Assembly (NCBI GenBank): GCA_029863005.1
Contig: JAOTWF010000007.1
Span: 1-63,909 of the forward strand
DNA from: Gammaproteobacteria bacterium
Lineage (GTDB): Bacteria > Pseudomonadota > Gammaproteobacteria > Acidiferrobacterales > Sulfurifustaceae
DNA length: 63,909 nucleotides
Direction: 5' to 3'
Below are positions 43,409 to 57,963 of the stretch, in pieces. How positions within the stretch are numbered: position 1 is the first letter of the stretch; the number at the start of each line of letters is the position of its first letter. Below the pieces are notes generated by a model. The model made no database searches, had not been told where the DNA came from, and saw only the letters and a program-made list of their open reading frames with translations. The translations under genes and the position numbers were made by a program.

Positions 43409-44456
43409 TTCATTCAGCCGGCGGCTGCTCGCTTGGTATGACGCGCACGGGCGCAAATCCCTGCCCTGGAAATCCCGGCGTGACCCGTATCGCATTTGGG
43501 TATCAGAAATCATGCTGCAACAGACCCAAGTCGCAACGGTCATCCCGTATTTCAAACGCTTCATAACACGATTCCCCGATGTGCGCACACTCGCGCGCGC
43601 GCGACTCGATTCCGTATTGCATCGCTGGACCGGGCTGGGTTACTACGCCCGGGCGCGCAACCTGCATAAGGCAGCGCAGCAGATCGTGAAAGAACACGCC
43701 GGCAAATTTCCACGCCGCTTCGAGGCCGTGGCCGCCCTGCCGGGTGTGGGCCGTTCCACCGCCGGCGCCATCCTGGCACTGGCTTTTGGCAGCCGTCATC
43801 CCATACTCGATGGCAACGTCCGGCGTGTGTTGGCGCGTTATCACGCCGTCGAAACACCGATCGAACAGCGGGGAACCGAGGTGCGCCTTTGGCAACTTGC
43901 GGAGCGGCACACGCCGCGCGCGCGCTTGGCCGATTACACCCAGGCCATCATGGACCTGGGCGCCACCGTATGCACGCGCGCGAAACCCCAGTGTGCGGTG
44001 TGTCCATTGCGTTTGCACTGCCGTGCCCGCCGTCTCGGGACTCCGCAGGATTTTCCGGTGCGCATCGGCAGGCTCCCGACACCGGTCAAGACCACGCGCA
44101 TGCTCATGATCCACGATGCACGCGGACGTGTGCTGCTGCAACGCCGTCCGCCGACGGGCCTGTGGGGAGGTCTGTGGGGATTTCCCGAATGCGTCGATGG
44201 CAACGCACGGCAATGGTGTCGCCAGTCACTCGGAATCAATATACAGACGGGATCACCGTGGCCGGCGCGGCGCCACAGTTTCAGTCACTTTCATCTCGAC
44301 ATCACGCCCATACCCGCGCGGCTGGTGGGGAGAACGACTCTCGCGATGGAGAATGCCGAAACAGTCTGGTATAACGTTCGGCGTCCGGATCAACGCGGAT
44401 TCAGCGCTCCGGTGAAACATTTGCTTGAACAATTGAGAGGAAAGGAATCGAACTGA
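43398..44456 (+). CDS. mutY: Adenine DNA glycosylase MutY
   Basis: A 352-residue glycosylase that removes adenine mispaired with 8-oxoguanine. The catalytic E37 ([14 protein letters not shown]), D138 ([14 protein letters not shown]), the helix-hairpin-helix [12 protein letters not shown] and the 4Fe-4S motif C-x6-C-x2-C-x5-C ([17 protein letters not shown]) are all present, and a C-terminal NUDT1-like domain with [10 protein letters not shown] follows. yggX starts in its stop codon (TGATG), the usual mutY-yggX pairing. Confidence 0.97.
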
Positions 44457-44731
44457 TGGCCCGTATGGTGAAGTGTGTAAAACTCGGCAAAGAGGCCGAA
44501 GGACTGGATTACCCGACCTATCCCGGTGAGCTCGGCAAACGTATCTGGGAAAACGTCTCAAAGGAGGCCTGGAAGCTGTGGCTCGCTCACCAGACCATGC
44601 TGATGAACGAGTACCGCATCAACCCCATGGACCCCAAGGCTCGCAAGATGATTGAAGGCGAGATGGAAAAATATTTCTTCGGTGAAGGCTCACAGTTGCC
44701 GGAAGGTTACGTCCCGCCAGCCAGCAAATAA
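44456..44731 (+). CDS. yggX: Fe(II)-trafficking protein YggX (copy 1)
   Basis: A 91-residue Ygg[41 protein letters not shown] and [10 protein letters not shown]. The family protects iron-sulfur enzymes against oxidative damage and helps iron delivery. This is the canonical copy, coupled to mutY. A second copy (50625-50909) lies elsewhere in the window beside a radical SAM gene. Confidence 0.96.
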
Positions 44732-49226: not shown

Positions 49227-50615
49227 TTAAAAACTTTGCAGTTGCTGATGGGTCGGCTCGGCGCAGCAATACCAAGGCTCGGACAGGCGCGGGATCGGTA
49301 AACTCATCACATGTTCCGCCAGTTCCGGAATCTCTCCGCCCAGCGCCGCGTGCGCCAGTTTCCAGATAGACGCGAAGATATCGCGTCGGGTTAATTTTTC
49401 CGCCTCGGCTTTCATTACCAACTCCTGCACCGCGAGTTGCAAACGATCGACACGCGTGTCGGGATTTTTCCACGGATAGCCCAGGAGCTTGGGGTCAAAT
49501 TCGCCGATGTACGATTGCATATCCGGCAACCCCAGCAACAGCGAACCTTGCGGGATCAGCAGGCGAATCGCCAACTGGATCGGCGGCACGCTCTCGACCA
49601 GATCAAGCTCGAGCAGGCGCTTAAGCAGCGCGATGTTGCCTTCCAGCGTGGTCCAGGGCGTAAAGGCCACAAAGGTTGGGGCAAGTGCAATATCAGCGGC
49701 GCGGCAGAGCCGCAAGGCGCGCGCGAAATCGTCTTTCGTATGGTTCTTGGCCAGCCGTTCCAACACACGATCGTCCACCGATTCCACGGCGCTGGTGATG
49801 AACAAGCAACCGGTGGCTTTCAGTTCCGGCAGCATATCGGCGTGTTTGATAATGTGCTGAATCTTGATGGTGACGTCGTATGTAATACCCGGAAATTCGG
49901 CGTGCAGGGCTTGCGCGAGCTTCCGCGCATGGGTTGGACCGTTCAGGAAATCCGGGTCGCCGAAGGAGATATGTTGCGCTCCGGCAGAGACCTGCTGACG
50001 CACGTCGGCCATGACGGTATCCACCGGAATAACGCGAAATGCACCTTGATACACCGGCACCACCGGGCAATGGCGGCACAAGTGCTTGCAGCCGCGCGTG
50101 CCCTCGGCGAAGCCGACGGTCTTGCGCCCACCGTCGGGCAGTTGCAGATGCGCGTAGCGTTCCAGCGGCGGCAGCGCACGGCGATCGGGCGTCATGAATT
50201 CTATCCTGGACAGATTCACCACCGGCTCGGTTTGGACCTTGCCATCGCCGGCGCGCAGACGTTCCACCAGTGATACCAGCGCGGGTTCGACTTCACCGCC
50301 GAGGACGATTTGGACTCCCAACTTGCGCAGCAGCTTTTCATTCATGGGCGCATACAGGCCGTAAACGCACAGGTGCGCCTCAGGCGCCAGTTTCCGCACC
50401 CGCGGGATCGCCTCGATGGCGATGCGCGTGGCGGTGTGCATGGCAACATAGATGGCGACCACGCGGGCGTCGCGCAACACTTCGGGTTCCAGGCATTGCA
50501 GAGTGAGATCGAGGCAATGCACCTCGCAACCGGCACGCGCGAGCCACGCCGCCGGCTCGGCCAGGCCGAAAGGCTGGCGGCCAATCTCGTAGGGATTGAT
50601 CAGGACGACTTTCAC
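49227..50615 (-). CDS. B12-binding CCAEP-tail radical SAM protein
   Basis: A 462-residue class B-like radical SAM protein: an N-terminal cobalamin-binding Rossmann domain (about 1-130, MKVVLINPYEIGRQPFGLAE), then the SAM cluster C176-x3-C180-x2-C183 in EGTRGCKHLCRHC, and a C-terminal extension ending WYCCAEPT, with C450-C451. This CCAEP tail, or CUAEP with selenocysteine in relatives, marks a distinct family of unknown function. It is preceded at nine bases by a second yggX. The tail cysteine pair is probably catalytic. It could methylate or rearrange an unknown substrate. Confidence 0.85.
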   Translation of the reverse strand: MKVVLINPYEIGRQPFGLAEPAAWLARAGCEVHCLDLTLQCLEPEVLRDARVVAIYVAMHTATRIAIEAIPRVRKLAPEAHLCVYGLYAPMNEKLLRKLGVQIVLGGEVEPALVSLVERLRAGDGKVQTEPVVNLSRIEFMTPDRRALPPLERYAHLQLPDGGRKTVGFAEGTRGCKHLCRHCPVVPVYQGAFRVIPVDTVMADVRQQVSAGAQHISFGDPDFLNGPTHARKLAQALHAEFPGITYDVTIKIQHIIKHADMLPELKATGCLFITSAVESVDDRVLERLAKNHTKDDFARALRLCRAADIALAPTFVAFTPWTTLEGNIALLKRLLELDLVESVPPIQLAIRLLIPQGSLLLGLPDMQSYIGEFDPKLLGYPWKNPDTRVDRLQLAVQELVMKAEAEKLTRRDIFASIWKLAHAALGGEIPELAEHVMSLPIPRLSEPWYCCAEPTHQQLQSF

Positions 50616-50624
50616 GAACCGCTG

Positions 50625-50909
50625 CTATTTTTTGCTGCCGGCAGGCTGGAATCCGGCCGGGAGCTTACCCATGTCGCCTTCGCCGAACAGGAAGCCGACC
50701 ATGTGCTGTTCGATGACCTTGATGCTGCCCGGGTCGGCGCTGCTGAGCTTGTTCTCGTTGATGATCGTGGCCAGGCGCGCCAGCCATTGTTTCCAGCCTT
50801 CCTTGGAGACGTTTTCAAATATGCGCTGGCCCAAGGCCCCCGGATGCGGCGGGCGCTCCAGACCTTCGGCTTCGCGTTTCAGTACGACGCAGCGAACGGT
50901 GCGTGCCAT
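50625..50909 (-). CDS. Fe(II)-trafficking protein YggX (copy 2)
   Basis: A 94-residue YggX paralogue: MARTVRCVVLKREAEGLERP, GALGQRIFENVSKEGWKQWL and MVGFLFGEGDMGKLPAGFQP. The N-terminal cysteine is kept. It differs from copy 1 at many positions, so it is not a recent duplicate. It is the first gene of an operon with the CCAEP-tail radical SAM gene, suggesting dedicated iron supply or protection for that oxygen-sensitive cluster. The divergent neighbour is an A-type Fe-S carrier. Confidence 0.92.
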   Translation of the reverse strand: MARTVRCVVLKREAEGLERPPHPGALGQRIFENVSKEGWKQWLARLATIINENKLSSADPGSIKVIEQHMVGFLFGEGDMGKLPAGFQPAGSKK

Positions 50910-51071
50910 GCGTGCCTCTTGTTCGTAAATGATGGAGACATTGTATTACGAATAACCGGGCCACCGCTCATTGCCACATGAAATGCGGTGATTTGGCGCA
51001 GTCAATTTCATGATTCCGGCCGAATCGGGTACCATGCTTTACATCTGGATTCACGAATGAGGAGCGATGTC

Positions 51072-51437
51072 ATGGGCGCCATCGAATATTCCACCCGTAT
51101 CGGCGACGCCGAGATGCGGCTCACCCCGGCGGCGCAGGCCAAGTTCGCCGAACTGCTGAAGGAAGCCGACAGTGACATCGCCGGCATCCGCGTGTTCGTC
51201 TCGGGCGGTGGCTGCAGCGGTATGACCTACGACATGACCTACGCCAGCAGCGTGGACAGTGAGTACGACAGCGTGCTCGAAGGTCCGGGCTTCAAGGTCT
51301 TCGTCGACCCGGTCGCGCTCAATTACCTGCAAGGCTGCGAGATCGATTTCACCAATTCGAGCTTTGTGTTCAACAAGGTGTTCCAGGCGGTAGGCGGCAA
51401 AGGCACCTGTGGCGGATGCGGCGGCGGAGGTTTCTAG
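51072..51437 (+). CDS. A-type iron-sulfur carrier (HesB/IscA/ErpA-like) with CGGC end
   Basis: A 121-residue HesB-domain protein: MRLTPAAQAKFAELL, the first ligand C48 in GIRVFVSGGGCSGMTYDM, IDFTNSSFVFNKVF and a C-terminal GTCGGCGGGGF. A-type carriers end C-G-C; here the pair is C113-G-G-C116, one glycine wider, and a fourth cysteine C89 lies in between. ATG 51072 has GGAG at good distance; an ATG at 51057 is also possible. It overlaps the ATP-grasp gene by 29 bases. Confidence 0.85.
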   Translation: MGAIEYSTRIGDAEMRLTPAAQAKFAELLKEADSDIAGIRVFVSGGGCSGMTYDMTYASSVDSEYDSVLEGPGFKVFVDPVALNYLQGCEIDFTNSSFVFNKVFQAVGGKGTCGGCGGGGF

Positions 51438-52713
51438 TCCTGCCAAGGCACCCGTCCAAAATGCGGCTGCGCGCCGCATTCTGTTGATCGCTCCGCACGA
51501 CAGCTACCGCACTGCGCCGTTCCTGGCGGCGGCCAAGGCCCACGGGATTGAAGTATTAATCGCCTCCGAGGCCAAACACTCCCTGGTCAGCGCCTACGTC
51601 GACGGTCTGCATCTCGATCTCGGCGATATCCAGGCCTCATTGCAAACCATTCTACGCGAAGCGCATCGGCGGCCATTCGCGGCCGTGCTCGGCAGCGACG
51701 ACGCCAGCACGGAAATTGCGGCACTCGCAGCCACCGAACTTGGCCTCCCCCACAATCCCACCGCGGCGGTGCACCTCGCGCGGCGCAAGGACCTGGCGCG
51801 CGATCGGCTGACACAAGCCGGCGTGCCGGTACCACGCCACTGGCGACTCGATCTCAGGCGTCCGTTGGCCGCACAAACTGAAGACATCCGTTTTCCCTGC
51901 GTGCTCAAACCGGTGGCGCTCGCCGCCAGCCGCGGCGTGATCCGCGCCGATAATCTTGACCAACTCACACAGGCCGCCGCGCGCATCCAGGTATTGCTGA
52001 CGCGCGCCAGGCTGCGCGAAGCGGAAGAGCGCGAAACCATCCTGGTTGAGGAATTCATCCCCGGTTTCGAGGTGGCGGTGGAAGGCCTGTTGACGCAGGG
52101 GAATCTCGAAATCCTGACCATCTTCGACAAGCCCGATCCGCTGGACGGTCCGTATTTCGAAGAGACGTATTACATCACCCCGTCACGGCTGGATGCACCG
52201 ACGCAAAAGACCTTGCGCGAAACCATCTCCGCCGCTTGCGCCGCCTACGGCCTGCGCGAAGGACCGATCCACGCCGAGTGTCGCATCAACGACAAGGGCG
52301 TATGGATACTCGAAGTCGCCGCGCGCACGATAGGCGGATTATGTGGACGCCTGCTGCGCTTCGGCACCGGCTCCAGTCTGGAAGAATTGGTATTACTGCA
52401 TGCCCTGGGCGAACACCCCGAATTAAACAATGAAACTGGTGGCGCCGGGGTGCTCATGATCCCGACCCCACAGGCCGGTATCCTGCGGCGTGTCGAGGGC
52501 GTGCTAACCGCCGGGAAAGTGCCGTATATAGAAGAAGTCGTCATCAATGTGCGTGAGGGCTACGAACTGGTGCCCCTGCCGGAGGGCTCGAGTTATCTCG
52601 GATTTATTTTCGCGCGCGCGCCAAGTGCGGAGGAGGCCGAGGCAGCATTGCGCGCGGCACACGCCTGCCTGCGCGTGGTGGTGATGCCATTATGGAAGGG
52701 GGTGAACGTTTAG
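51409..52713 (+). CDS. ATP-grasp domain enzyme
   Basis: A 434-residue ATP-grasp protein: an N-terminal Rossmann-like part (about 22-110, ILLIAPHDSYRTAPFLAAAK), ATP lid FPCVLKPVALAASRGVIRAD, ILVEEFIPGFEVAVEGLLTQ, metal-site IHAECRINDKGVWILEVAAR, and a C-terminal domain with GVLMIPTPQAGILRRVEGV. Such enzymes join a carboxylate to an amine or thiol through an acyl phosphate. The closest style is of amino-acid ligases (carbamoyl-phosphate/D-Ala-D-Ala type). GTG 51409 starts inside the HesB-like gene. The substrate is unknown. Confidence 0.85.
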   Translation: MADAAAEVSSPAKAPVQNAAARRILLIAPHDSYRTAPFLAAAKAHGIEVLIASEAKHSLVSAYVDGLHLDLGDIQASLQTILREAHRRPFAAVLGSDDASTEIAALAATELGLPHNPTAAVHLARRKDLARDRLTQAGVPVPRHWRLDLRRPLAAQTEDIRFPCVLKPVALAASRGVIRADNLDQLTQAAARIQVLLTRARLREAEERETILVEEFIPGFEVAVEGLLTQGNLEILTIFDKPDPLDGPYFEETYYITPSRLDAPTQKTLRETISAACAAYGLREGPIHAECRINDKGVWILEVAARTIGGLCGRLLRFGTGSSLEELVLLHALGEHPELNNETGGAGVLMIPTPQAGILRRVEGVLTAGKVPYIEEVVINVREGYELVPLPEGSSYLGFIFARAPSAEEAEAALRAAHACLRVVVMPLWKGVNV

Positions 52714-52754
52714 CGTTTCAGCGACTCTGACCCCTTGATCCAAGAATAAACACC

Positions 52755-54899
52755 ATGACCAAGTCACGAATCATAATTATTATTTTTCTTGTTGTCGCCA
52801 TCGGCGCGTTCTTCATCTTTGATCTGGGTCAGTACCTGACCCTGGACTACTTCAAATCTCAGCAGCAGGCCATCGAGGGTTACCGGCAAAATCACCCGCT
52901 GGCCACCGCGCTGGGATTTTTCATCGTCTACGTCGCCGTCACCGGTCTGTCGCTGCCGGGCGCGGCGTTAATGACCTTGGTGGCGGGCGCGATATTCGGA
53001 TTGGGCTGGGGCACCCTGATCGTCTCTTTCGCTTCCACCATCGGCGCCACACTCGCGTTTCTGGTCTCGCGCCTGCTGCTGAAGGATCTGGTACAGCGGC
53101 GCTTCGGCGATAAACTGAAAACCGCCAACCGTGGCATTGAGAAGGACGGCGCCTTCTATCTGTTTACCCTGCGCTTGGTGCCGGCGTTTCCATTTTTCGT
53201 GATCAACCTGGTCATGGGCCTGACCCCGATTCGGACCTGGACTTTTTACTGGGTAAGTCAGGTGGGTATGCTGGCCGGTACCCTGGTCTACGTCAACGCC
53301 GGTACCCAGCTGGCGCAACTGCAGTCACTGTCCGGGATACTGTCACTCGAGCTCATTATTTCATTCACCCTGCTCGGGGTGTTCCCGTTGCTGGCCAAGA
53401 AGGCCGTTGAAATATTCAAAGCCCGGCGCGTGCTGAAGCATTACCCCAAGCCAAAACATTTCGATCGCGACCTGGTCGTCATCGGCGCCGGCTCCGGGGG
53501 CCTGGTAAGCGCGTACATTGGCGCCGCCGTCAAGGCCAGGGTGAGCCTGATCGAAAAGCACCGCATGGGCGGCGACTGCCTGAACACCGGCTGTGTGCCG
53601 TCCAAGGCGCTGATCCGTTCCGCCAAGTTTCTTTCCCATGCGCGCCGCGCGCGCGAGTTCGGCTTCGACTCGGTAGCCGTCGATTTCGATTTTGCGCGCA
53701 TCATGGAACGGGTGCAGCGCGTCATTCGCGAGATCGAACCGCATGATTCAGTGGAGCGTTACACGAAACTCGGCGTCGATTGCATTCAGGGAGAAGCCCA
53801 AATTACTTCGCCCTACACAGTGAACGTCAATGGCCACACGTTGACCACACGCAGCATTGTCGTCGCCACCGGCGGGCGCCCAGCGGTGCCGTCAATCCCC
53901 GGCATCGAAGACATCGGCTACCTGACCTCCAACACCCTCTGGGAGCTGCGCACACTACCAGGCCGGCTGCTGGTGTTGGGTGGCGGACCCATCGGCTGCG
54001 AACTCGCCCAGTGTTTCGCACGCTTCGGCAGCCGCGTGATCCAGCTCAACCGTGGACAGCGCTTGTTGAACAAGGAAGACCCGGAGTTTTCCAGCATGGT
54101 GATGCAGCGTTTCGAGCGCGAAGGTATCGAGTTGCGCATGAATCATTCGCCAAAAGCGTTTCACGTGGACGGCGGTCGTAAAACCCTGGTGGCCGAACAT
54201 GACGGCCGGGAGGTCGAGATCGAGTTCGATGCCTTACTGTTGGCCGTGGGTCGGCAGGCCAATAGTCGCGGCTTTGGTCTGGAGGCGCTCGGTGTGCCCC
54301 TGCGCAAGGATGGCACCATCGAAATCAACGACTACCTGCAGACGATTTACCCGAACATCTATGCCGTCGGCGATGTCGCCGGCCCCTACCAGTTCACCCA
54401 TACCGCGGCGCATCAGGCCTGGTACGCGGCGGTCAATGGTCTGTTTGGCAGCTTCAAGAAATTCCGCGCGGATTATTCGGTGATTCCGTGGGCCACCTTC
54501 ACCGATCCCGAGATCGCGCGCGTCGGTCTCAATGAACAAGAGGCGAAGGCCAAGAGTATTCCCTATGAAGTAACCACTTATCCGATCGATGATCTCGACC
54601 GCGCCATCGCGGATGAAGAAGCCCATGGCCTGGTGAAGGTGCTGACCGTGCCCGGCAAGGACCGCATTCTCGGTGTGACCATCGCCGGGGAGCACGCCGG
54701 TGATTTGATTTCTGAATTTGTGGCCGCCATGCGCCACGGATTCGGTCTCAACAAGATTTTAAGCACCATCCACATCTACCCGACCTTGGCCGAGGCCAAT
54801 AAATACGTTGCGGGGAATTGGAAGCGTGCCCACGCACCCAAGCGGGTGCTGGCCTGGCTGGGGCGTTACCACTGTTGGCGCCGGGGTGGTAAACCTTAG
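52755..54899 (+). CDS. TVP38/TMEM64-pyridine nucleotide-disulfide oxidoreductase fusion
   Basis: A 714-residue two-part protein. Residues 1-225 form a TVP38/TMEM64 (DedA-like) membrane domain with the GAALMTLVAGAIFGLGWGTL loop and LRLVPAFPFFVINLVMGL. Residues 240-714 form a dihydrolipoamide/mercuric reductase-like flavoprotein with VVIGAGSGGLVSAYIGAAVK, the redox disulfide GGDCLNTGCVPSKAL, and a C-terminal HIYPTLAEANKY that supplies the active-site base. The arrangement would place an NAD(P)H-dependent disulfide reductase at the inner membrane. The substrate is unknown; no mer genes are present. It lies 41 bases after the ATP-grasp gene. Confidence 0.9.
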   Translation: MTKSRIIIIIFLVVAIGAFFIFDLGQYLTLDYFKSQQQAIEGYRQNHPLATALGFFIVYVAVTGLSLPGAALMTLVAGAIFGLGWGTLIVSFASTIGATLAFLVSRLLLKDLVQRRFGDKLKTANRGIEKDGAFYLFTLRLVPAFPFFVINLVMGLTPIRTWTFYWVSQVGMLAGTLVYVNAGTQLAQLQSLSGILSLELIISFTLLGVFPLLAKKAVEIFKARRVLKHYPKPKHFDRDLVVIGAGSGGLVSAYIGAAVKARVSLIEKHRMGGDCLNTGCVPSKALIRSAKFLSHARRAREFGFDSVAVDFDFARIMERVQRVIREIEPHDSVERYTKLGVDCIQGEAQITSPYTVNVNGHTLTTRSIVVATGGRPAVPSIPGIEDIGYLTSNTLWELRTLPGRLLVLGGGPIGCELAQCFARFGSRVIQLNRGQRLLNKEDPEFSSMVMQRFEREGIELRMNHSPKAFHVDGGRKTLVAEHDGREVEIEFDALLLAVGRQANSRGFGLEALGVPLRKDGTIEINDYLQTIYPNIYAVGDVAGPYQFTHTAAHQAWYAAVNGLFGSFKKFRADYSVIPWATFTDPEIARVGLNEQEAKAKSIPYEVTTYPIDDLDRAIADEEAHGLVKVLTVPGKDRILGVTIAGEHAGDLISEFVAAMRHGFGLNKILSTIHIYPTLAEANKYVAGNWKRAHAPKRVLAWLGRYHCWRRGGKP

Positions 54900-54957: not shown

Positions 54958-55827
54958 CTACTGCACCGCGCGATGCACGGCCTCGCCGATTTTTGACGGG
55001 TTGCGCACGACGTGCGCGCCAAGTGCTTCAATTTGCTCCATTTTAGCCGAAGCGGTGTCGGCCGGGCCGGCGATCACGGCGCCGGCGTGGCCCATGCGTC
55101 GCCGTGCCGGAGCGGTGATCCCCGCGATGAAGCAAACCAGCGGCTTGCCCAGGTGTTCCTTGGCCCACGCGGCAGCCTCGATCTCCTGGCTGCCGCCGAT
55201 TTCGCCGATCATCACCACCGCCTCGGTGTCCGGGTCGTCCTTGAAGGCGCGCAGCACGGTCAGGAAATCCGTACCGGTGACGGTATCACCGCCGATGCCG
55301 ACACAGGTGGACTGCCCGAGTTTGTAATCGGCCATCTGCTCAACGGCTTCGTAATTGAGCGTGCCGGAGCGCGACACCACGCCGATTTTTCCGGGTTTAT
55401 AGATATGGGCCGGCATGATACCGACCTTGCATTCATTGGGCGTGATCAGGCCCGGCGTGTTGGGGCCGACAATCACCACGTCGCGCCCGGCGGAATAACG
55501 CTTGACGCGCACCATGTCCTGCACCGGGATGCCATCGGCAACGACCACGATGATGCGGATGCCGATGTCGATGGCCTCCATGATGGCGTCGGCGGCGAAC
55601 GGCGGTGGCACGAAAATGCCAGCGACGTCGGCCCCGGTCTTCGCCACCGCCTCGTACAGGGTGTCGAACAGGGGGACACCAAGGTGCTGGGCGCCGCCCT
55701 TGCCGGGGGTCACGCCGGCGACGACCTGAGTGCCGATCTTCATGGATTCCTCGGCATGGAAACTGCCGTGCTGGCCGGTCAGACCCTGAATCACGACACG
55801 TGAGGATTTATTTATGAAGATGCTCAT
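54958..55827 (-). CDS. mtkB: Malate-CoA ligase (malate thiokinase) alpha subunit
   Basis: A 289-residue SucD-like subunit: SSRVVIQGLTGQHGSFHAEE, PGKGGAQHLGVPLFDTLYEA and VGPNTPGLITPNECKVGIMP, with the phosphorylated histidine in RRMGHAGAVIAG. In sequence it would fit succinyl-CoA synthetase, but the partner genes (mtkA and mcl) identify it as malate thiokinase, which forms malyl-CoA from malate, ATP and CoA. It overlaps mtkA by 20 bases. Confidence 0.88.
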   Translation of the reverse strand: MSIFINKSSRVVIQGLTGQHGSFHAEESMKIGTQVVAGVTPGKGGAQHLGVPLFDTLYEAVAKTGADVAGIFVPPPFAADAIMEAIDIGIRIIVVVADGIPVQDMVRVKRYSAGRDVVIVGPNTPGLITPNECKVGIMPAHIYKPGKIGVVSRSGTLNYEAVEQMADYKLGQSTCVGIGGDTVTGTDFLTVLRAFKDDPDTEAVVMIGEIGGSQEIEAAAWAKEHLGKPLVCFIAGITAPARRRMGHAGAVIAGPADTASAKMEQIEALGAHVVRNPSKIGEAVHRAVQ

Positions 55828-56995
55828 GGGCGGCTCCGCTGGTGGCGCGCACGGCCATGGCCGCGGCATCGTCGAGATTGTTGGCGGTAAGGAATTTCAG
55901 GCCAGACTGGGCCAGGACCGCGCGGCCCTGTTCCACGTTGGTGCCGGCGAGGCGCACCACAACCGGCACGGTGACTTTGAGTTCACGCATCGCGCGCACG
56001 ATGCCTTCTGCTATCCAGTCACAGCGGTTGATACCGGCAAAGATGTTGACGAGCACCGCCTTGACGTTCTTATCCAGTAACACGATCCGAAAAGCGTTGG
56101 TGACTTTCTCCGGCGAGGCGCCGCCGCCCACGTCGAGAAAATTCGCCGGCTGCCCGTCGTGCAGGGCGATGGCGTCCATGGTGGCCATGGCCAGCCCGGC
56201 ACCGTTGACGATGCAGCCGACATTACCCTCGAGCGCAATGTAATTGAGTCCGTGCGCGCCGGCCTCGACTTCCTTGGGGTCTTCCTCGTCGAAATCGCGC
56301 AGGTTGCTGATATGCGGCCGGCGGTAGATGGCGTTGTCGTCGAACTGCATCTTCGCATCCAGCGCCAGGAGGCGGCCATCCAGGGTGACGGCCAGCGGGT
56401 TGACTTCGATCAGCACGGCATCGTTGTCGCGAAAGCAGCGGTACAACGCCTTCATCATTTTCACCGCGGGCGAAAGCTGTTTGCCGCTGATTTTCAGGTG
56501 CGTGGCAACCTTGCGACACTGGAAGTCGAGCAATCCCACCGCCGGGTCCACCGGCTCACGCAGGATGCGTTCCGGTTCGTGGCGCGCCGTTTCTTCGATT
56601 TCGACCCCGCCGCCGTCGCAGGCGATTATGGTGATGCGCTGTGTGGTGCGGTCGATAACTAGGCCGAAATAGGCCTCGCGCGCGATGTCGACGGCCTGCT
56701 CGATCAGCACGCGCCGCACGAATTGCCCCTGTGGGCCGGTCTGGGCGGTGATGAGCGGCCGGCCAATGATTTCATCGGTTACGGTGCGCACTTCCTCGAC
56801 AGTGTGGGCCAGCTTGACGCCACCACCCTTGCCGCGGCCGCCAGCGTGAATCTGCGCCTTCACCACGAAGCGATTGACGCCAAGTTCCTCGGCCACGGCC
56901 TCCGCTTGCTCCACGCTGTGCGCCACGCTGCCCGCGGGCACCGGCACACCGTATTGCCGCATCAGGTCCTTCGCCTGGAATTCGTGGATATTCAT
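55808..56995 (-). CDS. mtkA: Malate-CoA ligase (malate thiokinase) beta subunit
   Basis: A 395-residue SucC-like ATP-grasp subunit: MNIHEFQAKDLMRQYGVPVP, VVKAQIHAGGRGKGGGVKLA, EVNPLAVTLDGRLLALDAKM, NGAGLAMATMDAIALHDGQP and VVRLAGTNVEQGRAVLAQSG. It carries the nucleotide site of the ligase. The start overlaps the mcl stop (ATGA). As with mtkB, the malate specificity is inferred from the neighbouring lyase rather than from a visible specificity residue. Confidence 0.88.
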   Translation of the reverse strand: MNIHEFQAKDLMRQYGVPVPAGSVAHSVEQAEAVAEELGVNRFVVKAQIHAGGRGKGGGVKLAHTVEEVRTVTDEIIGRPLITAQTGPQGQFVRRVLIEQAVDIAREAYFGLVIDRTTQRITIIACDGGGVEIEETARHEPERILREPVDPAVGLLDFQCRKVATHLKISGKQLSPAVKMMKALYRCFRDNDAVLIEVNPLAVTLDGRLLALDAKMQFDDNAIYRRPHISNLRDFDEEDPKEVEAGAHGLNYIALEGNVGCIVNGAGLAMATMDAIALHDGQPANFLDVGGGASPEKVTNAFRIVLLDKNVKAVLVNIFAGINRCDWIAEGIVRAMRELKVTVPVVVRLAGTNVEQGRAVLAQSGLKFLTANNLDDAAAMAVRATSGAAHEHLHK

Positions 56996-57963
56996 GCCGC
57001 CTGCTCTTGGCTCATTTTTATGCGTTTCATTTTTTCCACCACGACCTCGGCCTGGCGGATTGAGGCGGCATCGAGCATGCGGCCATCGAGCGTCACGGCG
57101 CCTTGGCCTTTCTTGGCGGCCTCCGCCATGGCCGCGAGAATGCGCTGCGCGCGTGTGACTTCAGCTTCAGTGGGAGAGAACACCTCGTTCGCCAGTGCAA
57201 TCTGCGAAGGATGGATGGCCCATTTACCTTCGATGCCAAGTGCGGCCGCCGAGCGCGCCGCGGAGCGATAACCCTCGGCGTCCTGAATGTCGCTGAACGG
57301 CCCGTCGATCGGGCGCAGACCGTAGGCGCGGCAGGCCACCACGAGGCGCGCCTGCGCGTAGTGCCATTGATCGTTCCAGTGACGTTCGCGCTTGCCACCC
57401 TCTGCGTGCGTGAGCACGGCATAATCTGCATTGGCCCCGCCCATGTGCGTGACACGCGCCTGGGTCGAGGCCGCAAAATCGGCCACGCCGAAGACCAGCG
57501 CTTCCATGCGTTCGGGACAAATCGCGGCAATGTCCTCGATGTTGGCCATGCCGCGCGCAGTCTCGATCAGGGCGTGGAGGCCGATGGGCTTGAGGCCCTT
57601 GGATGCCTCGACCTGCGACAGCAAGGTGGCCACGAAGTAGATGTCCTCGGGGGTGTTGACCTTAGGGATAAGGAGCGTGTCGAGATGCTTGCCGGCCTGC
57701 TCCACGATATCCACGATGTCACGGTAACAGTAGTGCGTGTCGAGGGCGTTGATGCGCACGGAAACGGCGCAACGCGACCAGTCGTGATGCTGCAGGGCAT
57801 GAATGACGTTCTTGCGCGCCTGCTCCTTGTCGGTGGGCGCTACCGCATCCTCGAGATCCATGAACACGATATCGGCGCCGAGCGTGGGAGCCTTCTCGAG
57901 CATGCGTGAATTGCTCCCGGGGACGGCAAGCTCACTTCGATGGAGACGATCCTTGCTGGGCAT
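56992..57963 (-). CDS. mcl: Malyl-CoA lyase (CitE-like)
   Basis: A 323-residue HpcH/HpaI aldolase-family enzyme, matching methylotroph malyl-CoA lyases through its length: RLHRSELAVPGSNSRMLEKA, FMDLEDAVAPTDKEQARKNV, RINALDTHYCYRDIVDIVE, ACRAYGLRPIDGPFSDIQDA and GIEGKWAIHPSQIALANEVF. It cleaves malyl-CoA to acetyl-CoA and glyoxylate. Together with MtkAB it converts malate to these two compounds, as in the serine cycle; in autotrophs it may feed glyoxylate or acetyl-CoA. It is the first gene of the minus-strand operon. Confidence 0.93.
   Translation of the reverse strand: MPSKDRLHRSELAVPGSNSRMLEKAPTLGADIVFMDLEDAVAPTDKEQARKNVIHALQHHDWSRCAVSVRINALDTHYCYRDIVDIVEQAGKHLDTLLIPKVNTPEDIYFVATLLSQVEASKGLKPIGLHALIETARGMANIEDIAAICPERMEALVFGVADFAASTQARVTHMGGANADYAVLTHAEGGKRERHWNDQWHYAQARLVVACRAYGLRPIDGPFSDIQDAEGYRSAARSAAALGIEGKWAIHPSQIALANEVFSPTEAEVTRAQRILAAMAEAAKKGQGAVTLDGRMLDAASIRQAEVVVEKMKRIKMSQEQAA

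Follow-up and report, generated by a model that had tools for sequence, protein, structure and literature searches.

We analysed a window of 63,909 nucleotides (contig JAOTWF010000007.1, positions 1 to 63,909, assembly GCA_029863005.1), concentrating on a radical S-adenosylmethionine (SAM) protein that ends in the motif C-C-A-E-P and on the iron-related and ligase genes beside it. The host assembly is 2.45 Mb long and 95% complete; judged by the radical SAM protein, its nearest named relatives are Sulfuricaulis-like Acidiferrobacterales. An initial annotation, made from the letters of the DNA, had proposed that five adjacent genes form one system. All five were confirmed at the stated positions, profile scores placed them in the families it had guessed, and both the terminal CCAEP with C450-C451 and the overlap of the ATP-grasp gene with hesB that it described are present. 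The genes are listed below, followed by a further yggX copy in the window.

49227..50615, minus strand: radical SAM protein with a CCAEP tail (family NF040546), 462 amino acids, GTG start, predicted B12-type fold; CX3CX2C at C176/C180/C183, vicinal cysteines C450-C451 in a tail ending SEPWYCCAEPTHQQLQSF
50625..50909, minus strand: YggX2, a YggX paralogue associated with the HesB-ligase module, 9 bases before the radical SAM start
51051..51437, plus strand: A-type HesB/IscA-like protein (the HesB variant) with C48 and C113-X2-C116 (numbering from the alternative start at 51072), not the usual C-X-C; 141 to 162 bases separate hesB and yggX2
51409..52713, plus strand: L-amino acid ligase (LAL)-type ATP-grasp ligase, clade A, GTG start, 29-base overlap with hesB
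52755..54899, plus strand: TVP38/VTT domain fused to a disulfide oxidoreductase, probably outside the system
44456..44731, plus strand: canonical YggX1, after mutY

A ligase search matched 39 of 57 genomes from the order and 64 of 370 drawn evenly from the class, and DNA was available for 48 ligase loci: 24 from the 39 order genomes (window included), 21 from the 64 class genomes and 3 from named organisms. A gene for the HesB variant lay within 600 bases of the ligase, on the same strand, in 42 of the 48 loci. Within 2.5 kb of the ligase, yggX was found in 40 loci and the radical SAM gene in 11. Where 1.5 kb or more of flank was available on each side (41 loci), the counts were 36 for hesB, 35 for yggX, 33 for both and 9 for radical SAM; the counted loci were themselves among the sources of the profiles used here and for the counts within 3 kb of the radical SAM gene given below. 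We concluded from these gene orders that the hesB variant, LAL and yggX2 constitute a conserved module. It is situated beside recO-pdxJ-acpS, beside Fe-S (iron-sulfur) assembly genes, or elsewhere, and in loci L140, L142 and partly L144 it adjoins NifU_N, DUF59-type, Rieske and SufS-like genes.

The radical SAM gene had no place in most of these loci: it was absent from within 2.5 kb in 26 of the 33 loci with the full trio, and therefore yggX2 belongs to the module. The initial annotation was right that a paralogue precedes the radical SAM gene by nine bases, but the proposal that YggX2 is the radical SAM protein's own paralogue was rejected on this count, as it goes with HesB and LAL. An outcome that the annotation had itself named as refuting its grouping was also observed: hesB and the ligase, both plus-strand genes, are conserved without the radical SAM gene. 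The TVP38-flavoprotein, which contains a VTT domain and a pyridine nucleotide-disulphide oxidoreductase domain and had been counted in the set as its disulfide reductase, was rejected as a component: a full-length query against the open reading frames of the 48 ligase loci found it next to the ligase in just one of them, that of the window.

The HesB variant scored 71.9 bits on TIGR00049, above the cut-off of 58.8, and 70.2 bits on the ErpA model NF010147, below its cut-off of 117. A C-X-C pair at the C terminus belongs to the usual ligand set of A-type Fe-S carriers. We compared 40 copies (42 sequences minus two canonical A-type proteins, L042 and L050; eight loci repeating others were dropped), and found C48 in all 40, C113-X2-C116 in 38 and C-X-C in none. 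Additional cysteine was present in the glycine-rich tail of 15 of the 38 CXXC copies. Because the CXXC pair is kept in 38 of 40 copies while two canonical A-type proteins from the window's own genome retain C-X-C (ending CGCGSSF and CGCGESF), the alignment indicates that the odd C-terminal end marks a subfamily and is not an accident. The C-G-G-C end that had been called unusual is thus a conserved feature.

The YggX2 protein scored 101.2 bits on NF003817 (cut-off 74) and is the second copy in the window, besides the canonical yggX1 after mutY. In a tree of YggX proteins, YggX2 and YggX1 formed separate groups (37 and 32 rows, 99% local support), a partly circular test with few columns, as each row had been assigned to its kind by its resemblance to one or other copy in the window.

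The ligase contains the domains PF13535 (ATP-grasp_4, 118 bits) and PF18603 (LAL_C2, 57.7 bits against a cut-off of 29.4). A dipeptide product is likely on sequence grounds, as the solved relative that it matches best, BL00235, is an L-amino acid ligase (139.5 bits over residues 73–423). In the ligase tree, those module ligases that it included fell in clade A, and the ligases neighbouring radical SAM genes in named, mostly Betaproteobacteria, loci formed clade B. Several side observations concern this gene. Six loci (L079, L086, L095, L099, L103 and L105; named Thiobacillus, Sulfuriferula, Sideroxydans and one other) carried a gene of one cluster directly 3' of the ligase, with a 4-base overlap in four of the six; the L103 copy is a fructosamine kinase by Pfam. 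At L230:10054-11130, 11 bases beyond the module ligase, there is a gene that by eye resembles another radical SAM enzyme, with CNLCLWQC close to its beginning. The ligase of genome G090 (locus L176), from another family (f33), is 84% identical to that of the window, pointing to recent transfer or a mis-binned contig. Likewise, L109 (titled Rhizobium) grouped with Thiobacillus and L040 (titled Acidobacteria) with Betaproteobacteria, as mislabelled bins or transfer would produce.

The radical SAM protein matched NF040546 over its full length with 623.1 bits (cut-off 500). Its predicted structure (pLDDT 92.4) has a B12-type radical SAM fold, and it matched OxsB, AprD4 and TsrM with Z of 25–27 and root-mean-square deviations of 3.2–3.7 over 394–420 residues; AprD4, a radical SAM enzyme that is not known to use cobalamin, matched as well as the others. 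The B12-binding model PF02310 scored 20.1 bits, below its cut-off of 32.1. Accordingly, the case for cobalamin binding is less firm than the earlier description made it, with a B12-type predicted fold but a domain score below the cut-off.

Among 115 relatives that were not selected by tail (repeats included), 107 ended in CCAEP and 3 in CCSEP; the remaining tails were cut short, except for one CUAEP. This exception, from Thermomicrobium, reads C-TGA-GCG-GAG-CCG, or C-U-A-E-P if TGA encodes selenocysteine. At L111:11340-11440 of Thermomicrobium roseum the annotated frame stops at the TGA and is followed by in-frame A-E-P codons, as expected for a selenoprotein tail. A plasmid search, the only sampling of other phyla, returned one ArsL, 15 proteins annotated as having an RCCLKC tail, a single CUAEP protein from Thermomicrobium and two other radical SAM or cobalamin proteins.

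We then considered the association of the radical SAM gene with the ligase. In the class sample of 370 genomes, LAL was found in 18 of the 22 genomes with the radical SAM protein and in 46 of the 348 others (odds ratio 29.5, Fisher p = 9e-12), with the qualification that the genomes are not independent and that both searches scored at most four candidates per genome. For 13 of the 14 families in which the radical SAM protein occurred, LAL was present in a sampled genome. A sample of 80 named loci, the best 80 of 505 close relatives and leaning to Betaproteobacteria, was examined by profile search: LAL lay within 3 kb of radical SAM in 58 (57 in a single-sequence search), DUF971 in 46, yggX in 24 and a strong HesB match in 5, and the ligase was at most 300 bases away in 49. 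The claimed link between the radical SAM gene and an ATP-grasp ligase was thereby upheld. Our own gene caller missed the radical SAM gene in some loci, so counts were taken from open reading frames.

The two genes adjoin in varied ways. The usual order in Betaproteobacteria is (yggX1) DUF971, radical SAM, LAL. The radical SAM gene stands behind yggX2 in the window, G045, G046 and G031, and directly behind LAL in L046, L055 and L062 (overlapping by 14 or 4 bases, or 11 apart). Elsewhere, radical SAM-yggX2 faces LAL-hesB (G143, G252), or the order is yggX1-radical SAM-LAL (G354) or radical SAM-LAL (G077). Within clade A, adjacency covers the window's group, the L046/L055/L062 group, G143/G252, G354 and G077. 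A thinned ligase tree required seven changes of adjacency, four of them forced by starred branches, with gain and loss not distinguishable. For this tree we removed eight ligase rows and the outgroup, reduced clade B by about two thirds, took out three of its rows that lacked a called radical SAM gene, and supplied G077 with a full ligase row. Taken together, gene order shows radical SAM and LAL as neighbours in several lineages that are separate from one another, and in differing arrangements. In the window's genus, five of nine genomes carried both genes (one radical SAM gene being partial) and four carried neither; the latter had a single yggX, as did G048, one of the five.

The radical SAM gene was also linked to yggX, which lay within 3 kb in 16 of 20 order loci (20 of 28 were fetched, 8 of them repeating named loci), 4 of 16 class loci and 24 of the 80 named loci. 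Since most order genomes carry one or two yggX genes, we estimate that such proximity would arise by chance well under once in 100. In most order loci the copy concerned was yggX1 by mutY, a pair near which radical SAM is found in many related genomes; it was yggX2 in the window's group and in G143/G252. The association thus involves yggX of either kind, and may be due in part to inherited position. Nfu was found upstream of the radical SAM gene in L050 and L114.

Our preferred interpretation, to which we assign a probability of roughly 0.45, is that the radical SAM protein and LAL together produce a metabolite that derives from an amino acid and has a part in iron or Fe-S handling. The co-occurrence makes it probable that the two act in one small-molecule pathway. 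That the product is tied to iron or Fe-S is a closer call, falling slightly short of even odds; it is suggested because of YggX, the A-type variant, the few loci with Nfu and suf-like genes, and DUF971, which we take to be part of an Fe-S assembly factor. In the pathway proposed, SAM would be cleaved at the CX3CX2C cluster of the radical SAM protein, which resembles ArsL in build. Its Cys-Cys (or Cys-Sec) tail would hold a thiophilic substrate, and this would receive a SAM-derived group and so become an unusual amino acid or thiol. By analogy with ArsL the group could be 3-amino-3-carboxypropyl, although we consider this particular transfer somewhat unlikely. LAL would then join the product to a second amino acid; in genomes lacking the radical SAM gene it would instead join a standard amino acid to a second one. 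YggX and A-type proteins have their task in iron or Fe-S handling; the dipeptide-like product would be put to use there, and the CXXC HesB variant may be a carrier or sensor that uses it. The unusual amino acid or thiol and its capping by LAL rest on co-occurrence in this scheme, and the iron or Fe-S service rests on context. In its most specific form, which we think improbable, the product would be a new cofactor of low molecular weight. The Cys-Cys or Cys-Sec tail would bind sulfur, selenium or a metal, onto which a SAM-derived group would be placed; LAL would cap this as a dipeptide, and the CXXC A-type carrier and YggX2 would use it as an iron or Fe-S ligand, with a simpler dipeptide where the radical SAM protein is missing.

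Several results weigh against this interpretation. Beside the many trio loci with no radical SAM gene nearby, 13 trio genomes had no radical SAM protein over the cut-off, nine in the order (G018, G023, G024, G026, G028, G030, G049, G051, G056) and four in the class (G133, G170, G178, G280); many sampled genomes are metagenome bins, in which absence of a gene can be incompleteness. Because of these two results, we concluded that the ligase does not need the radical SAM protein. Co-occurrence beyond chance, which the initial annotation had called for, held in the class sample but was not significant within the order, where LAL was present in 22 of 28 radical-SAM genomes (three with partial radical SAM genes) and in 17 of 29 others (p = 0.15). 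Only 5 of the 22 class radical-SAM genomes had the two genes side by side, only 4 of the 16 class loci fetched had iron or Fe-S genes within 3 kb, and several radical SAM neighbourhoods lacked an obvious partner. DUF971 and YggX1 look like housekeeping genes, and part of the linkage can be inherited position. Lastly, tail invariance in our radical SAM alignment (A1) proves little, as its rows were chosen by tail.

The lack of significance within the order lends some weight to the idea that the genes are unrelated and adjoin merely because they share common housekeeping positions (yggX-mutY, recO-pdxJ-acpS, DUF971-ubiE), where module and radical SAM are indeed often found. We judge this unlikely, however, since the arrangements vary, adjacency to the ligase recurs, and the class-level co-occurrence holds also when radical SAM and LAL are unlinked. 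The repeated linkage of radical SAM with yggX and DUF971 would fit a role in which HesB, YggX2 and DUF971 do no more than supply the radical SAM protein with its Fe-S cluster, and the ligase acts on what that protein makes. This seems very improbable to us given the 26 trio loci with no neighbouring radical SAM gene and the 13 trio genomes with none over the cut-off.

A further alternative is that the protein is an arsenic enzyme like ArsL, which would convert As(III) to an arsinothricin-like amino acid from which LAL would build a peptide pro-antibiotic. E. coli expressing ArsL converts As(III) to AST-OH (PMC8552651), and a review cites a radical SAM enzyme of arsinothricin biosynthesis as transferring a 3-amino-3-carboxypropyl radical to arsenic (PMC12159101). 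Of the characterised families, ArsL lies closest by a wide margin (260 bits, the next family scoring 47), and the nearest other family of an ArsL is in turn NF040546; the vicinal cysteine tail is also common to both. However, the window protein reached only 260.1 of the 450 bits required by the ArsL model NF040542, and it has CCAEPT in place of the RCCLKC tail of ArsL, so that only the cysteine pair aligns. An ArsL-type cluster on an Alicyclobacillus plasmid has an ATP-grasp gene together with ArsM and ArsN1, yet this ligase is only a distant relative, 82 bits at best. At that locus (L113:1436-6272) the ATP-grasp gene sits beside major facilitator superfamily and ArsM genes with ArsN1 further on, possibly for a peptide form of an arsinothricin-like compound.

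Gene neighbourhoods gave nothing in favour of an arsenic product. The called genes of the window and loci L031–L153 were searched with single representative queries, class loci being left out and the caller missing some genes: ArsR, ArsB, ArsC, ArsH, ArsQ and ArsN1b had no match at E 1e-5 outside the two source clusters. In the same set, ArsM-like genes were one clear (L064) and six weak, some of them UbiE-like, and one borderline ArsN1a-like match lay beside the radical SAM gene of L061. Nor did self-resistance genes help. ArsN1b (E 1e-25) occurred in none of the 22 radical-SAM genomes and in 30 of the 348 others, which is weak evidence as about two would be expected; ArsN1a exceeded its cut-off in 1 of 20 radical-SAM genomes, with a partial match in another and without a comparison set. 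An arsenic role is thus not supported by context, on evidence that is weak in part, and we regard it as improbable.

Downstream of the locus, positions 54958-57963 of the window hold the genes for a succinate/malate-CoA ligase, both alpha and beta, together with one that is CitE/malyl-CoA-lyase-like, as in a malate-CoA ligase pathway.

The searchable literature contained no mention of CUAEP, CCAEP or RCCLKC, although an earlier description in selenoprotein-discovery work is possible, and no paper with YggX and ATP-grasp together. Papers on A-type carriers or HesB, YggX, L-amino acid ligases and genomic context included none on the module, as judged by title and the start of the abstract, and the main text of a paper on selenoproteins (PMC13188914) mentions neither NF040546 nor CUAEP. 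The radical SAM-LAL pairing and the module are thus not described in the searchable literature. Through the preferred interpretation, a named, unexplained radical SAM family, nearest to an arsenic-antibiotic enzyme, gains testable partners in a dipeptide-type ligase and iron/Fe-S genes. The three-gene module, with an A-type protein lacking C-X-C, indicates an unexplored branch of iron-sulfur biology in Gammaproteobacteria.

Comparison with known systems places each component near a described family. The radical SAM protein resembles the NCBI-named family NF040546 in its full-length match and C-C-A-E-P tail; the model's name and description state no reaction, and the partners LAL, yggX and HesB variant are described here. 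It shares about 30% identity, many positions and a vicinal cysteine tail with ArsL, but falls below that family's cut-off, lacks the RCCLKC tail and has no ars operon found near it. The ligase has the ATP-grasp_4 and LAL_C2 domains of BL00235, BacD and DdaF, but exceeds no NCBIfam cut-off listed and adjoins the HesB variant and yggX2. YggX2 passes the model of the bacterial Fe(II) trafficking protein YggX and keeps C7, but forms a separate tree group, subject to the partly circular labelling. Finally, the HesB variant resembles ErpA, IscA and SufA in passing TIGR00049 and keeping C48, but differs from them in having CXXC and a Gly/Ala-rich tail in place of CXC.

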